The notes under the pieces were generated by a model. That model searched no databases. It was given only the letters and a program-made list of their open reading frames with translations, and was not told the origin of the DNA. 39,592 bases of DNA from Flavobacteriales bacterium. Lineage in GTDB: Bacteria > Bacteroidota > Bacteroidia > NS11-12g > UBA955. A program made the position numbers and the translations under genes. Shown here one piece after another: positions 6,160 to 11,673 of the stretch. The number at the start of each line of letters is the position of its first letter. Position 1 is the stretch's first letter. The DNA lies in contig CANKVN010000012.1 of the NCBI GenBank assembly GCA_947487055.1, forward strand, positions 1 to 39,592, written 5' to 3'.

Positions 6160-7260
6160 TCAGAAGGTGCTGTGCACGTGCATCATGTCATTGATGCGCT
6201 TTTCAGCCAGTTTAATCGCGGCTTGCTGATTGTTTACCTGCTGTGCATCGGCCAGGGAATAAATATCCAAAATGGTTTTATAAATATTCTCTGCCTGTGC
6301 CATGGCCTGTTCGCGCACATAGCCGTTGTATTCGCTGTAAACGTTAATCAAACCACCTGCATTGATCACAAAATCAGGGGCATATACAATGCCTTTTGCT
6401 TTCAGCATATCGCCATGTACCTTCTCGTCTTCCAGTTGGTTGTTTGCGGCACCTGCAACCACCTGACATTTTAAACGGGGGATGGTATTTCCATTAAGGA
6501 TTGCACCCAAGGCGCAAGGAGCGAAAACATCAACATCCAGTTCGTACATATCGTCTCCGCTTACGGGTATAGCACCCATGGCAGCGGCCTCAATCAGTGC
6601 TTGTTCGTTGATATCTGCAACATAAATGGAAGCACCTTCTTTTTTCAGGTGTTCCAAAAGGTGCATACCTACTTTACCAATACCTTGTACGGCAACACTT
6701 TTACCACTTAGGCTATCGCTACCCCATGCTTTTTTAGCAGAAGCTTTGATACCCATATAGGTTCCAAATGCGGTAACTGGAGAAGGATCGCCGCCGCCGC
6801 CCATCATTTCGGGCAAGCCAACAACGTGGTCCGTTTCCATGTTTACATATTCCATGTCGCGTGTGGTTGTTCCCACATCTTCGGCAGTGATGTATTTGCC
6901 ATTAAGATTTTCAACAAACCGTCCGAATTTGCGCATCAGCGCTTCGCTCTTTGCGGTTTTGGCATCACCAATAATTACCGCTTTTGCACCTCCCAGATTC
7001 AATCCGGCAACAGAAGCCTTGTAGGTCATTCCCCTGCTTAAGCGGAGTGCATCACGGACCGCATCTTTTTCATTGGCATAAGACCACATGCGGGTTCCGC
7101 CCAATCCTGGACCAAGCACCGTGTTGTGGATTGCAATGATAGCCTTGAGGCCGGTAGCATTATCCTGGCAAAAAACGATTTGTTCGTGATTGGTGGATTC
7201 AAGCCCTGCAAAAAGATCAAAGACCGTAGCGGGGGTACTCATGGTTTGGATATCAGCCAT
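6160..7260 (-). CDS. ldh: Leucine dehydrogenase (Glu/Leu/Phe/Val dehydrogenase family)
   Basis: 366-residue NAD-dependent amino-acid dehydrogenase that converts branched-chain amino acids to 2-oxoacids plus ammonia, feeding branched fatty-acid synthesis or nitrogen release. The substrate site shows GPGLGGTRMW (about 50-59), Lys81 in MTYKASVAGL, and the catalytic Lys93 in LGGAKAVI. The GGGDPSPVTAFG segment and the dinucleotide fold SVAVQGIGKVGMHLLE are typical of the Leu/Phe/Val branch rather than glutamate dehydrogenase. The length fits leucine dehydrogenase. It has its own TATCTTTG promoter box 14 bases before the ATG. A paralogue, gdhA, lies about 3 kb upstream on the same strand. Leu versus Val preference cannot be settled by eye. 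Confidence 0.9.
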   Translation of the reverse strand: MADIQTMSTPATVFDLFAGLESTNHEQIVFCQDNATGLKAIIAIHNTVLGPGLGGTRMWSYANEKDAVRDALRLSRGMTYKASVAGLNLGGAKAVIIGDAKTAKSEALMRKFGRFVENLNGKYITAEDVGTTTRDMEYVNMETDHVVGLPEMMGGGGDPSPVTAFGTYMGIKASAKKAWGSDSLSGKSVAVQGIGKVGMHLLEHLKKEGASIYVADINEQALIEAAAMGAIPVSGDDMYELDVDVFAPCALGAILNGNTIPRLKCQVVAGAANNQLEDEKVHGDMLKAKGIVYAPDFVINAGGLINVYSEYNGYVREQAMAQAENIYKTILDIYSLADAQQVNNQQAAIKLAEKRINDMMHVHSTF

Positions 7261-7316: not shown

Positions 7317-8333
7317 TTATTGTAATGTCAATTCCGGAACACTCCTGGGTGGATATTTGGCTGCCACGTCTGCAATGGCCCTGATATGCTCAGGTGTAGT
7401 GCCGCAACAGCCACCAATTACATTAATCCAACCTGCTTTGCACCAGCCTTCCAGCACCGAGGCCATTCCTTCAGGGGTATCGTCATATTCGCCAAATTCA
7501 TTAGGCAGTCCGGCATTGGGATAACAACTTACATTAATCCATGATACGCGGCTCAATTCCTCCACATAAGGACGCATTTGATCGGCTCCCAAGGCACAGT
7601 TAAATCCTACAGACAATAAATTGCCATGCGACACAGAATTCCAAAACGCCTCCGGGGTTTGGCCACTAAGCGTTCTTCCGGAATTATCGGTGATGGTTCC
7701 ACTCACCATTACCGGAATATTTGTACCCATCTCTTCTTTCAGTTCATTGATGTCAAACAACGCAGCCTTACAATTCAAGGTATCAAAAACGGTTTCCACA
7801 AGCAGCAAATCGCAACCGGCTTCAATCAGCGCCTGGGCTTGCTCACGGTACGTTTTCCGCAAGTCATCAAAATTTACTGCCCTGTATCCCGGATTATTGA
7901 CATCCGGACTCAGACTTGCAGTGCGGTTGGTCGGACCAATTGAACCCGCAACAAACCTTGGCCTGGAAGGATCTTTCTGCGTGTATTCATCAGCAGCTTG
8001 CCTGGCAAGCCTGGTGGCTTCTACATTCAGTTCCCAAACCAGATTTTCCATGTGGTAATCCGCCATAGAAACAACATTTGCACTAAAGGTATTGGTTTCC
8101 AAAATATCGGCTCCCGCCTCCAAAAAGGCCCTGTGGATGTCCAAAATTATCTGTGGCTGTGTCAATACCAGCAAATCGTTATTCCCTTTGAGGGAGTGTG
8201 CAAAATCTTTAAAACGCGCTCCGCGATAGTCTTCCTCGCTAAGCTTGTGTTTTTGTATCATGGTGCCCATGGCGCCATCTATGATAAGAATACGCTGCTG
8301 CAGCAATTCTTCAATGTTGGTTTTTTTACTCAT
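7317..8333 (-). CDS. metH: Methionine synthase, homocysteine S-methyltransferase subunit (split MetH)
   Basis: 338 residues covering only the N-terminal homocysteine-binding barrel of cobalamin-dependent methionine synthase. It opens with [12 protein letters not shown]. The zinc ligands are Cys246 (GFNCALG) and Cys309/Cys310 ([10 protein letters not shown]). Full MetH is about 1,200 residues, with folate, cobalamin and reactivation domains. None of these follow here: the frame stops cleanly and leucine dehydrogenase comes next. Several Bacteroidota carry MetH as two genes, so this is probably a natural split with the partner elsewhere, not a truncation. The start overlaps the end of the upstream hypothetical gene by 8 bases, so the two are translationally coupled. 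Confidence 0.9.
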
Positions 8334-9222
8334 AACTAAATGGTTTTAAATAATGATGCATCACCCTGAATGTTTGGTTTAGATAATCGACCGACTTCAT
8401 AGCATTGTTCGGTTTGAGAAGGCTGCTCACCTCATTTTCACTAAAATGCAAACCTGCTTTGCTAAACAGCATCAATGGAGATAACGATTTATTTTCTTTT
8501 TGGTTTTTGATATAGAAGAATTTGGCCATTGGTTCGCTTAGGTTAACACCGTGGCTGCTGTTGGGCAATACAGGCTCACCCCAGAAAACCACCTGGCAAT
8601 TTTGGTCATACAAATTCTGAATCGCATCAATGTTGTAAATACTCTCATTTTTCTTTGAGAACAATTGCTTAAAGGCATTTTCGGCAAGGCGGTAGTCGCT
8701 GGTGGTATCGGCTGGTATGAAAAATACGCAAGCCTTATGCTTAAAGGCAAAATACAGGTTTCTGTTTTTTGCTTTCACATAGGTATAATCAGGCCTTTCG
8801 GTTGGTTTTTCAATCAAATTTGCAGGAATCATATCCATGGTAAATTTCTTCAGCTTTTCATCGGAGGTTACGGTTAATGCCGCATACCATCCCATATCAT
8901 CTGCAAAGAGCACCAGGTCAGACATGAGGTAAACACCGGGCTGTCCGGCATCTTTCACGTTGTGAAAAACCGGAAACTTCATCATTGTGCGGTAAAGGCT
9001 ATCATAATAAGGCGGCCTTGTATCTGCCGATTTACGGGCCACTTCATCAACTTCTTTGGTCTGAAAATGGTAAAACCATTTGGCATTTTTGGGCACAATC
9101 AGGGGCAGGTTGCTGCGGGCGTGCACCCCATACGTCATGTACACCGCAACAATGGCTGATGTGACGAGTACTATAATCGATAGGGTAATTGCCCTGCGGC
9201 GAAACCCTTTGTCTTTATCCAT
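8326..9222 (-). CDS. Unknown membrane-anchored protein upstream of metH
   Basis: 298 residues, not recognised. A basic start ([11 protein letters not shown]) precedes one hydrophobic helix at about residues 12-32, then a roughly 265-residue soluble domain likely to be periplasmic. The soluble part has alternating beta-type segments ([52 protein letters not shown]). Only one cysteine pair is visible and there is no repeat or catalytic signature I can name. The 3' end overlaps the start of metH by 8 bases, so the two are one transcript. A TTCCTTTG box sits 9 bases before the ATG. The coupling to metH may be structural rather than functional. Confidence 0.8.
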
Positions 9223-9260: not shown

Positions 9261-9292
9261 AAGAAAAAGGCTGCACAAAGGCAGCCTTTTTT
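9261..9292 (-). terminator. Intrinsic terminator after the cysteine-rich gene
   Basis: Nine-base perfect stem AAAGGCTGC (9266-9274) / GCAGCCTTT (9281-9289) with a six-base loop and T-rich runs on both strands. It lies 25 bases after the stop of the minus-strand gene at 9317 and just before the next minus-strand promoter, so it insulates the two units. Confidence 0.85.
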
Positions 9293-9316: not shown

Positions 9317-9688
9317 TTAGGATTTCTTGCAGCAAGGCTTTGCACAAGATTTTTTCTCGCCGGTGGTGGTAGAAGTCTCATGACCTTTGCAAGAGGAAGC
9401 TTCTCCCTTTTGCTTGCAGCAAGATTTTTTCTCTGCAGCAGCTGATGCCTCGCCAGTTTTGGCTTTGCAGCAAGATTTTGCAGTACCTGAACCCTGGCAG
9501 GATTTGGCTGAGCCAGCACACTGTTTCTTTTCTCCTGAGCTTGAAGCAGTTATGGCTGTTGGAGTGTTTTTCTCTGCAGCAATTTGATCAGGCGTTTTAT
9601 CTGCAGCAGCAGCTGAAGCCGAAGTTTGCGCTTGTGCACCAAAAGCGAACCCGATTGCGCAGATGGCGAATACAATTATCTTTTTCAT
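9317..9688 (-). CDS. Secreted cysteine-rich KSCC-repeat protein
   Basis: 123 residues. A clear Sec signal (MKKIIVFAICAIGFAFGAQA, cleavage after residue 20) is followed by an Ala/Ser/Thr-rich linker to about residue 52. A Lys/Cys-rich C-terminal half follows, with ten cysteines between residues 57 and 120: Cys57, 64, 73, 74, 90, 91, 100, 115, 119, 120. Most sit in repeated KSC or KSCCK motifs, with one His (103). Composition and spacing suggest soft-metal binding (copper, zinc, cadmium) or a disulfide-linked periplasmic peptide. No family is recognised and the function is inferred only from composition. It has its own TAACTTTG promoter and a strong terminator, so it is a single-gene unit between psd and the metH operon. 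Low complexity could hide weak homology. Confidence 0.75.
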   Translation of the reverse strand: MKKIIVFAICAIGFAFGAQAQTSASAAAADKTPDQIAAEKNTPTAITASSSGEKKQCAGSAKSCQGSGTAKSCCKAKTGEASAAAEKKSCCKQKGEASSCKGHETSTTTGEKKSCAKPCCKKS

Positions 9689-9717: not shown

Positions 9718-9725
9718 CAAAGTTA
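9718..9725 (-). promoter_or_regulatory. -7 box (TAACTTTG) for the cysteine-rich gene
   Basis: An exact TAnnTTTG match on the minus strand, 29 bases before the ATG at 9688 and 7 bases after the psd stop. A TTG about 22 bases upstream, inside the end of psd, may be the -33 element. Confidence 0.6.
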
Positions 9726-9732
9726 ATGCCAT

Positions 9733-10386
9733 TTAGCTGAAAAAAGCAACTATACTTTCTCCTCCTTTGGTTTTTTGGCCCAAGGTTACATTTACTTTAC
9801 AATCCACAGGCAAAAACAAGTCAATCCTGCTTCCGAATTTAATGAAGCCATATTCCTCTCCCTGTTTTGCAGCATCGCCTTCTTTTGCATAGCAAACGAT
9901 ACGCCGGGCAAGGGCCCCTGCGATTTGCCTAAAAAGCACCTGTCCTTTGGCATTTTCCACAACTACGGTAGTCCTTTCATTCTCAGTACTGCTTTTAGGA
10001 TGCCATGCAACCAAATATTTTCCTGGAAAATATTTTTGGTACAACACCTTGCCAGTAATTGGATAGCGGTTTACGTGCACATTCAACGGGGACATAAATA
10101 TGCTTATTTGCTTGCGTTTCCCTTTGAAGTATTCAGGCTCTTCCACATCTTCAATCACCACCACTTTACCGTCGGCAGGCGCTATGATATGATTCTCATC
10201 AACGGGCGTATGACGCACAGGGTTGCGGAAAAACTGAATGACAAGAAAATAGAAAACCAAAGAGACCAGGAGGACTCCATTGGTAAGCCAGCCATCTCCC
10301 AGCCATTCATAGAGGCCAAAATTCAAACCACCCAAAATCAGGGTAGACAATAGGATGATTTTAAAACCTTCTCTGTGCAGCAACAT
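9733..10386 (-). CDS. psd: Phosphatidylserine decarboxylase, short archaeal-type
   Basis: 217-residue proenzyme that decarboxylates phosphatidylserine to phosphatidylethanolamine at the inner membrane. Two N-terminal hydrophobic segments (about 9-27 and 35-52) anchor it. Conserved blocks are IIAPADGKVVVIED (67-80), the MSPLNVHVNRYPITG region (98-112), and the self-cleavage site KFGSRID, with Gly185/Ser186 giving the alpha-subunit pyruvoyl group. The length fits the short PSD-A class, in which the LGST motif is replaced by FGSR. It starts 12 bases after gdhA stops and probably shares that transcript, although the two functions are unrelated. No pssA is visible in the window. Confidence 0.93.
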   Translation of the reverse strand: MLLHREGFKIILLSTLILGGLNFGLYEWLGDGWLTNGVLLVSLVFYFLVIQFFRNPVRHTPVDENHIIAPADGKVVVIEDVEEPEYFKGKRKQISIFMSPLNVHVNRYPITGKVLYQKYFPGKYLVAWHPKSSTENERTTVVVENAKGQVLFRQIAGALARRIVCYAKEGDAAKQGEEYGFIKFGSRIDLFLPVDCKVNVTLGQKTKGGESIVAFFS

Positions 10387-10398
10387 GTATTTTAAGAA

Positions 10399-11673
10399 TT
10401 AGAAAGAACCGCGCAATTTCAAGGTGCTGGCCACTTTATCAATGGCAACGATATATGCAGCAATGCGCATGTTTACTTTATATTTTCCTGAAGCAGCGTA
10501 AACATTGTCGAACGCCATTTTCATTACCCTATCCGCACGGCGGTGTACGCGCTCTTCTGTCCAGTAGTAACCCAAGCGGTTTTGTACCCATTCGAAATAA
10601 CTTACGGTAACACCACCGGCATTGGCAAGGATATCCGGTACTACCAATATCCCTTTGCTGTTCAGGATTGGATCTGCATCGGCCGTTGTTGGTCCATTTG
10701 CGCCTTCCACAATCAGTTTGGCTTTTATATCAGCGGCATTTTCAGCCGTAATTTGATCTTCCATGGCAGCAGGAACAAGCACATCGCAGGGCAAGGTCAG
10801 CAAATCAGAATTGCTCACTTTTTCACCGGCAGTAAAGCCTTCCAGGCTGCGTGTTGGGCTGTTTGCCACGAATGCAATGGCAGCTTCAACATCGATACCT
10901 TCAGGGTTGTAATACCCACCACTAATATCTGAGATACCCACTATTTTCACGCCCAGCTTGGAAATCAGCTTGGCAGAAATACTGCCCACGTTTCCAAATC
11001 CCTGAACCACGCAGGTAGCTTCTGTTGATTTGATACCCAATTTAGCCAAAGCGCTTCTGGTACTGACCATCACGCCACGACCGGTCGCTTCTACACGGCC
11101 CTGACTACCGCCAAGAACGAGGGGTTTTCCGGTAACCACACCCCAACTGTTCTGACCACGGATTTTGCTAAATTCATCAAGTATCCAGGCCATTTCCTGT
11201 TGGCCGGTTCCCATATCCGGAGCTGGAATATCTTTATCTTCTCCAAAAACATCTTTCATGGACAAGGTGTAACCCCTGGTCAATCGCTCCAACTCGCCTT
11301 TGCTCATGCTGCGTGGATCGCACTTGATACCACCTTTGGCACCACCATAAGGAATATTCACCACGGCGCACTTCCAGGTCATCCAGGCCGCCAGGGCCTT
11401 TACTTCGTCCAGATGCACATCCATGCTATAGCGGATTCCGCCTTTACTTGGTCCCAAATGAACACTATGTACCACACGATAGCCTTCAAAAACCTTGATG
11501 GTTCCATCGTCCATGGTAACGGGAATATTCACCATAACCACTTTATCCGGTGCTTTTAGCACACTGGCAAAATGGTCATCTAAACCAAGGATGTTAACTG
11601 CTTCATTGAAGCGACTCATCATGCTCTCCAAGGGATTGTATTGGGGAGCGCCTTTACTGCTTATATCGGTCAT
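10399..11673 (-). CDS. gdhA: Glutamate dehydrogenase
   Basis: 424-residue hexameric-type glutamate dehydrogenase that interconverts glutamate with 2-oxoglutarate plus ammonia. The substrate site has LGPSKGGIRY (73-82), Lys101 in MTWKCAVVNIPYG, and the catalytic Lys113 in GGAKGGIKCDP. The proton-relay Asp is in DIPAPDMGT. The Rossmann motif is VVQGFGNVGS. The size (about 420) matches the NAD-type short bacterial/archaeal GDH rather than the 450-residue E. coli NADP enzyme. The coenzyme preference is inferred. It has its own TAAATTTG promoter box and psd follows. It is a distant paralogue of the leucine dehydrogenase at 6160-7260, and both lie on the same strand. Confidence 0.93.
   Translation of the reverse strand: MTDISSKGAPQYNPLESMMSRFNEAVNILGLDDHFASVLKAPDKVVMVNIPVTMDDGTIKVFEGYRVVHSVHLGPSKGGIRYSMDVHLDEVKALAAWMTWKCAVVNIPYGGAKGGIKCDPRSMSKGELERLTRGYTLSMKDVFGEDKDIPAPDMGTGQQEMAWILDEFSKIRGQNSWGVVTGKPLVLGGSQGRVEATGRGVMVSTRSALAKLGIKSTEATCVVQGFGNVGSISAKLISKLGVKIVGISDISGGYYNPEGIDVEAAIAFVANSPTRSLEGFTAGEKVSNSDLLTLPCDVLVPAAMEDQITAENAADIKAKLIVEGANGPTTADADPILNSKGILVVPDILANAGGVTVSYFEWVQNRLGYYWTEERVHRRADRVMKMAFDNVYAASGKYKVNMRIAAYIVAIDKVASTLKLRGSF

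Follow-up and report, generated by a model that had tools for sequence, protein, structure and literature searches.

A conserved family of secreted, lysine- and cysteine-rich CC-doublet proteins in Bacteroidota, often encoded beside psd

The window analysed here is the whole of a 39,592-nucleotide stretch of contig CANKVN010000012.1, from a Flavobacteriales bacterium whose genome is a 2.34-Mb MAG, 95% complete. On its minus strand, a gene for a small secreted protein rich in Lys and Cys, which we call the CC-doublet protein, follows the gene for phosphatidylserine decarboxylase (psd). The features of the locus are given below.

7317-8333, minus strand: stand-alone homocysteine S-methyltransferase gene (Pfam name)
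8326-9222, minus strand: gene for a DUF4836-like protein, the downstream neighbour (PF16120, 22.3 bits, below the cut-off of 27)
9264-9291, minus strand: intrinsic terminator, an 11-bp stem followed by a T tract
9317-9688, minus strand: CC-doublet protein gene, an ORF of 123 aa plus stop
9329-9520, minus strand: Cys/Lys region, residues 57-120, with ten Cys and three CC doublets, each in KxCCK
9521-9625, minus strand: Ala/Ser/Thr-rich linker, residues 22-56, weakly conserved in alignments
9626-9688, minus strand: Sec-type signal peptide, about residues 1-21, MKKIIVFAICAIGFAFGAQAQ, read from the sequence
9718-9725, minus strand: promoter -7 box TAACTTTG (TAnnTTTG), conserved among homologues
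9747-9749, minus strand: TTG, a possible -33 element 21 nt upstream of the box
9733-10386, minus strand: psd, 44 nt upstream of the CC-doublet gene (PF02666, E 3.2e-48), assigned also by the linkage described below

Two different Glu/Leu/Phe/Val dehydrogenase genes, at 10399-11673 and 6160-7260 (both minus strand), bracket the block that holds psd and the CC-doublet gene. Within it, the DUF4836-like gene overlaps the start of the homocysteine S-methyltransferase gene.

The CC-doublet gene reads from 9688 to 9317, and the opposite (plus) reading is broken by six stops. Its product gave one match in its own genome. Besides Cys 10, which lies inside the signal, cysteines occupy positions 57, 64, 73, 74, 90, 91, 100, 115, 119 and 120, so that the mature protein carries ten Cys per 64 residues, with KxCCK at 71, 88 and 117. 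The first-pass annotation had described a signal peptide, an Ala/Ser/Thr linker, ten cysteines in about 65 residues and repeated KSC(C)K motifs, and the ORF bears out this layout. Signal peptides were called by eye for this protein, and by eye together with a crude script rule for the homologues. The chance of at least ten Cys in 102 residues is about 1e-8 at an assumed Cys background of 0.8% (our own figure); conservation of the protein is the better argument. A simple pattern for a lipobox, with its Cys at +1, matched 0 of 80 psd-linked members, and a lipoprotein identity was thus ruled out. In AlphaFold2 (a single model, with an 18-row alignment as input) the mean pLDDT was 45.9; the best-scored part was the N-terminal helix 4-26, that is, the signal, and no helix of four or more residues appeared within the mature part. 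The protein is predicted to be intrinsically disordered after the signal helix.

The sequence TAACTTTG fits TAnnTTTG, which we take to be the Bacteroidetes -7 promoter consensus. A TAnnTTTG box lay no more than 60 nt from the ATG in 53 of 80 homologues, compared with a mean of 5.0 and a maximum of 9 in dinucleotide shuffles and with 1 on the opposite strand. TTG stood at a spacing of 18-22 nt from the box in 23 of these 53, against 0.11 by chance. Within the class sample alone, 18 of 37 members had the box. On the other side of the gene, a hairpin and T tract were present in 67 of 80 homologues but in only 1 of 80 mononucleotide shuffles; among the seven genus members, the matcher found no terminator-like hairpin for L027 and L029. 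As the box and terminator recur in most homologues, the CC-doublet gene normally seems to be transcribed as a separate unit. The promoter box and the terminator noticed in the first-pass annotation thus correspond to TAACTTTG and the hairpin at 9291-9264, both of them recurrent.

Homologues were present in 7 of 7 genomes searched in the genus, the source genome included. In an alignment of these seven, Cys (0.93) and Lys (0.94) were the most conserved residues, compared with 0.48 for Ala and 0.35 for Thr, and the spacers drifted. Values of dN/dS were 0.07-0.41 in the 17 of 21 pairs that could be computed, with dS partly saturated and the calculation failing for four pairs; these values indicate that the gene is under purifying selection. 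The proposal in the first-pass annotation had been made to depend on conservation of the Cys positions in close relatives. That comparison left it standing, as the positions were kept across the genus save for single changes: L028 lacks C57 and C120, L027 lacks C119, and L030 has one displaced Cys and one additional Cys.

A single-sequence search of 70 genomes of the GTDB family to which the source genome belongs gave 19 matches at E of 0.01 or below, including all seven from its own genus. A profile built from an 18-sequence alignment (A1) matched 62 of the 70, some through the signal peptide only, a figure that overcounts by at least four (G005, G059, G060 and G068). Loci were then taken from 57 profile matches, the window and one locus from the psd search (L117), making 59, of which 46 hold psd. 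Of the 57 picked by profile, 13 were without psd, and 11 of these 13 (L075, L097-L103, L106, L111 and L114) showed no Lys/Cys protein at the match; these eleven look like signal-peptide or chance matches. In the other two, L041 and L109, the CC-doublet gene was present and psd was not in view. The L041 gene (5951-6421, genome G033) follows a gene that by eye resembles a membrane insertase (621 aa) and keeps its downstream neighbours.

By the script rule, 43 of the 46 loci that hold psd have the CC-doublet gene no more than 350 nt beyond it. The remaining three were read by eye: in L090 the gene directly follows psd, and in L104 and L105 one ORF lies between. This extra ORF of 207 aa (L104 4228-4851, L105 4216-4839) was seen in two genomes of one genus. 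Two of the 46 loci (L095 and L096) come from another family of the order. Every own-family locus that shows psd (44 of 44) has a homologue following it, and 42 of these loci were selected by the CC-doublet profile; as the family loci were mostly selected in this way, the counts show synteny and not frequency. A DUF4836-like gene followed the CC-doublet gene in 16 of 18 and 14 of 27 own-family loci, about two thirds overall. The order dehydrogenase, psd, CC-doublet gene, DUF4836-like gene and homocysteine methyltransferase is common but not general.

For an unbiased test of the linkage, psd was searched in 158 genomes of the class, giving 155 matches, 152 of them outside the own family. The DNA downstream of psd was read for 127 of these 152 genomes, the 25 omitted being mainly those with the weakest psd scores, and linkage was counted over the 126 loci with at least 400 nt downstream of psd. 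The rule called for a Sec-exported, Lys/Cys-rich ORF no more than 350 nt after psd; Cys and Lys were required and CC was not. Such an ORF followed psd in 37 of 126 loci and in 19 of 53 families, starting 18-160 nt past psd; the linkage is not universal, being absent in 89 of the 126. The same rule gave 2 matches in 126 antisense regions and 4 in 126 regions further downstream, and two of these four (L144 and L168) are real members one gene away from psd. In ten linked loci with enough upstream DNA (one of them, L123, could not be read), the other neighbour of psd varied, with an ELFV dehydrogenase, class-III and class-I/II aminotransferases, a transketolase and a phosphoribosyltransferase among them (Pfam, one example each). 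Therefore, psd and the CC-doublet gene are kept as a pair while their surroundings change. In the unlinked loci L118 and L132, psd follows a cdsA-like gene (Pfam for L118 alone). On a psd tree (FastTree, 171 rows, with the two one-gene-away loci scored as linked), the linked state was clustered, requiring 22 changes compared with a mean of 57 after shuffling; the resolution is too poor to tell gain from loss, and the tree labels tag L095 and L096 as f1 where they belong to f2.

This linkage would be expected if the protein had a role tied to psd, binding the anionic phospholipids PS and PG outside the inner membrane, with its production matched to PE synthesis. The persistence of the pair in the class despite the changing other neighbour fits that idea, as does a net charge of +4 to +14 in 68 of 70 non-redundant psd-linked members (negative in the other two). 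It would, however, explain the linkage and leave the Cys code aside; the CC-doublet gene also has its own promoter and terminator, and many genomes carry it away from psd. We regard a role of this kind as improbable.

Copies elsewhere were sought with a wider profile, A2, of 44 sequences. Up to 78 of 158 class genomes matched at E of 1e-3 or below, a count in which weak matches were not all checked and for which at most 31 candidates were scored per genome, so that copies may be missed. Of 28 loci read that were not directly after psd, 25 held Lys/Cys proteins by a rule that does require CC, mainly as single genes in varied surroundings, and three (L278, L292 and L293) held none by that rule. 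Sampling across the phylum gave matches at E of 1e-5 or below in 4 of 148 genomes; of the 24 rows listed, 23 were from the own class and most had no match, and the one match outside the class (L296) was to a protein with one CC. The CC-doublet protein is a conserved family found in many Bacteroidota, often beside psd.

The spacing of cysteines in this family follows a strict rule. CC occurred in every one of the 70 non-redundant psd-linked members, with 146 doublets compared with 70.6 expected from shuffles. The same members contained no CxC (68.5 expected) and no CxxC (65.0 expected). When shuffling left the CC units intact, the expectations were 28.7 for CxC (minimum 15) and 25.2 for CxxC (minimum 14), still against none observed. 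Spacings from CxxxC to Cx5C occurred at 0.25-0.38 of expectation, CxxxC itself 16 times against 63.5 expected. The full set of 80 psd-linked members held 559 Cys and 172 CC, with no CCC, CxC or CxxC. Among the 25 copies away from psd there was again no CxC, and three CxxC occurred in two members (L265 and L286), so the rule is slightly looser there. The doublets should not be read as independent of one another, as members share repeat units and ancestry.

Lys commonly flanked the doublets: of the 146, 110 have it at -2 and 103 have it at +1. Strict KxCCK was found in 48 of 80 members and in 36 of 41 from the own family; CxGH was found in 15 of the same 41 and in 1 of the 39 others. Lys makes up 20.4% and Cys 7.9% of the mature regions of the 70 members, in which large hydrophobic residues are few. 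The mature Cys count ranged from 3 to 13 across the 80 members, and spacing was variable. Separately, a CQGHAQA-type repeat, a thiol/His unit different from KxCCK, is expanded in L090 (1103-1762) relative to L091 (3671-4078), which have 15 and 9 Cys, respectively, from the MKK start.

Database searches agreed with the first-pass annotation in naming no family for this protein. Pfam gave no match up to E of 10, DUF2282 included, and neither the PDB sequence search nor PADLOC gave one; NCBIfam returned only far sub-threshold hits with unrelated names (Asr/EbpS). Known defence proteins and homologues of solved structures were set aside on the PADLOC and PDB results, respectively. In the literature, as far as the partial texts extend, no paper naming the family was found. 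Low complexity perhaps hides these proteins from Pfam and NCBIfam. When Pfam was run on 18 family members, a Conotoxin match appeared in one (E 0.0031) and a defensin propeptide match in two (E 0.038 or worse); these and the Asr/EbpS hits are most likely composition artefacts.

The same matches bear on whether the protein could be a cationic antimicrobial or thionin-like disulfide peptide. The KSCCK string also occurs in plant thionins, basic peptides like the CC-doublet protein, which the available part of PMC8279376 describes as plant-only and as having three or four disulfide bridges. Thionins, however, have fixed Cys spacing and a fold, whereas here the Cys count runs from 3 to 13, the spacing varies, no fold is predicted and large hydrophobic residues are few. 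The chromosomal place of the gene is also fixed across the GTDB family, with no immunity gene seen. This explanation is very improbable.

Metallothioneins resemble the CC-doublet protein more closely in composition. Both are short, Cys/Lys-rich chains of low order with almost no aromatic residues; metallothioneins are unfolded without metal, and those of vertebrates contain a KKSCC stretch. The CC-doublet protein differs in being Sec-exported, in lacking CxC and in having Cys units that are isolated and not clustered. Metallothionein homology was not recognisable in Pfam or PDB, nor in NCBIfam beyond the sub-threshold hits, and identity as a classic metallothionein was ruled out, CxC being absent from the 80 psd-linked and 25 other members. 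Copper storage proteins (Csp) share the idea of multi-thiol storage. They are folded four-helix bundles with CxxxC, unlike the CC-doublet protein, which has no predicted fold (pLDDT 45.9) and is depleted in CxxxC.

Another group to be weighed is that of RiPP metallophores modified by MNIO enzymes. As described in the consulted portion of PMC12452194, the precursors of bufferins and of HvfA/oxazolins are likewise small, Sec-exported Cys proteins, and bufferins chelate copper. The CC-doublet protein has the same general plan of a Sec signal (by eye and the crude script rule) and a mature part containing Cys. It differs in its repeats, with CC doublets and no EGKCG in its sequence, in giving no DUF2282 match, and in that MNIO (PF05114) had no match in its own 95%-complete genome. 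MNIO was found in 15 of 158 class genomes, and G173 alone among the 37 psd-linked ones had it. Identity as an MNIO RiPP or bufferin was rejected on the absence of MNIO from the own genome, and a modified metallophore of this kind is extremely improbable. The CC-doublet protein fitted no known family that was tried.

We also examined the machinery for disulfide formation. DsbA (PF01323), DsbB (PF02600) and VKOR (PF07884) had no match in the own genome; absence of these families from a 95%-complete MAG does not prove a reducing periplasm. In the class survey, DsbB was found in 0 of 158 genomes and VKOR in 8 of 158. The psd-linked gene occurred in 0 of 8 genomes with VKOR compared with 37 of 119 without, a difference that was not significant (Fisher p 0.10).

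These results enter into two further explanations based on thiols. In one, the doublets would form intermolecular disulfides and so build a cationic network on the outer membrane or peptidoglycan. Avoidance of CxC and CxxC, which close easily within one chain, would suit such an envelope cross-linker, as would CC units spaced along a long cationic chain, and linkage to a phospholipid-synthesis gene suggests a role in the envelope. Cross-linking needs an oxidant, however, and the own genome had no match to DsbA, DsbB or VKOR; some members, moreover, carry only 3-4 Cys. We consider it rather unlikely.

In the other, Lys-activated thiol pairs would act as a redox or electrophile buffer, absorbing envelope oxidants, aldehydes or reactive sulfur, with metal binding incidental. 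The Lys residues that flank CC may lower the thiol pKa, the predicted disorder would leave thiols exposed, and the lack of a DsbA, DsbB or VKOR match for enzymatic thiol oxidation is in keeping with this idea. On the other hand, CxxC, the usual redox motif, is absent from all 80 psd-linked members, and no reductase was seen beside the gene when loci were read by eye. Redox or electrophile buffering is doubtful by itself but ranks close to metal-ion buffering.

The reading we prefer, with a probability of roughly 0.4, is that the CC-doublet protein is a secreted, disordered and cationic metal-ion sponge in which the CC doublets are separate chelating sites. In broader terms, its probable mode of action is that of a secreted buffer for thiol chemistry or metal. 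After Sec export it would be retained in the periplasm or released from the cell. Each CC, usually flanked by Lys and set apart from the next Cys unit, would separately chelate transition or soft metal ions, and single Cys, together with the CxGH histidines of the own family, may supply extra ligands in some members. Capacity would rise with repeat number, and a folded cluster protein would not be involved. The variable Cys count (3-13, and 15 in L090 compared with 9 in L091) suits a chelator and not a fold. We infer that the thiols are reduced, that the ligand is a metal ion and that the role is one of buffering.

Of the two functions suggested in the first-pass annotation, a disulfide-rich peptide has become less likely, given the variable spacing, the absence of a predicted fold and the lack of DsbA, DsbB and VKOR matches. 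A soft-metal buffer is still the leading idea, but the absence of CxC and CxxC is unlike a classic Zn/Cd/Cu metallothionein. In addition, no evident metal gene was seen among the neighbours at linked or unlinked loci, most neighbours being judged without an annotation tool, and the conserved neighbour is a lipid enzyme; both points count against a metal sponge.

Proteins in which CC has been linked to metal include HspA and Hpn of Helicobacter pylori, His-rich cytosolic proteins that have no KxCCK repeat and for which no homology is claimed. Their likeness to the CC-doublet protein lies in CC itself, which the introduction of PMC8028610 names, for H. pylori proteins, as a site of very efficient Ni binding; it states that CC binds Ni(II) very efficiently via 2S,N donors and more stably than Zn(II). 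In the results of PMC8028610, CC coordinates Ni(II) in a square-planar (S,N,S) mode, for which the amide pK is estimated at a low 5.3, and tends toward thiolate-bridged species that become negligible at micromolar concentrations. The same paper reports that Zn, Cd and Pb are bound by CC peptides, though better by CxC and CxxC; that the purely thiolate NiL complex, too, is best formed with CxxC, and that other spacings also reach the (S,N,S) Ni mode; and that two-Cys peptides follow the overall order Ni<Zn<Pb<Cd. On these spacing data, CC does not clearly stand out as the strongest binder of any one of the four metals, and Cu was outside the set tested (PMC8028610). As the family is without the spacings that bind Zn, Cd and Pb best, the data argue against the zinc or cadmium version of the first-pass proposal. 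The CC code does not suggest Zn or Cd as the metal; Ni(II) and Cu are tentative candidates, and a thiol role that involves no metal may also apply.

A more specific form of the metal-ion sponge, which seems quite unlikely, would be a widespread, metallothionein-like family of Bacteroidota that uses CC only, is tuned to Ni(II) or Cu, operates where the periplasm has no recognised Dsb/VKOR oxidation and is held beside psd for envelope protection. KxCCK units strung singly along a disordered, cationic chain, with CxC and CxxC forbidden, would be adapted to metal ions, such as these two, that adopt square-planar S,N,S coordination. Adjacency to psd would be kept because metal/thiol protection of the envelope would match phospholipid synthesis. 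This form is weakened because CxxC is favourable for Ni too, according to the same parts of PMC8028610.

If the CC-doublet protein does bind metal, as the metal-ion sponge reading proposes, it would buffer metal through free thiols after Sec export, without being modified post-translationally. To our knowledge, unmodified buffers of this sort have hardly been described. The strictness of the Cys rule offers a sharp and testable lead on the thiol chemistry of an envelope without matches to the usual disulfide machinery, and the psd linkage provides a handle for locating and deleting the CC-doublet gene in culturable, free-living Bacteroidota.
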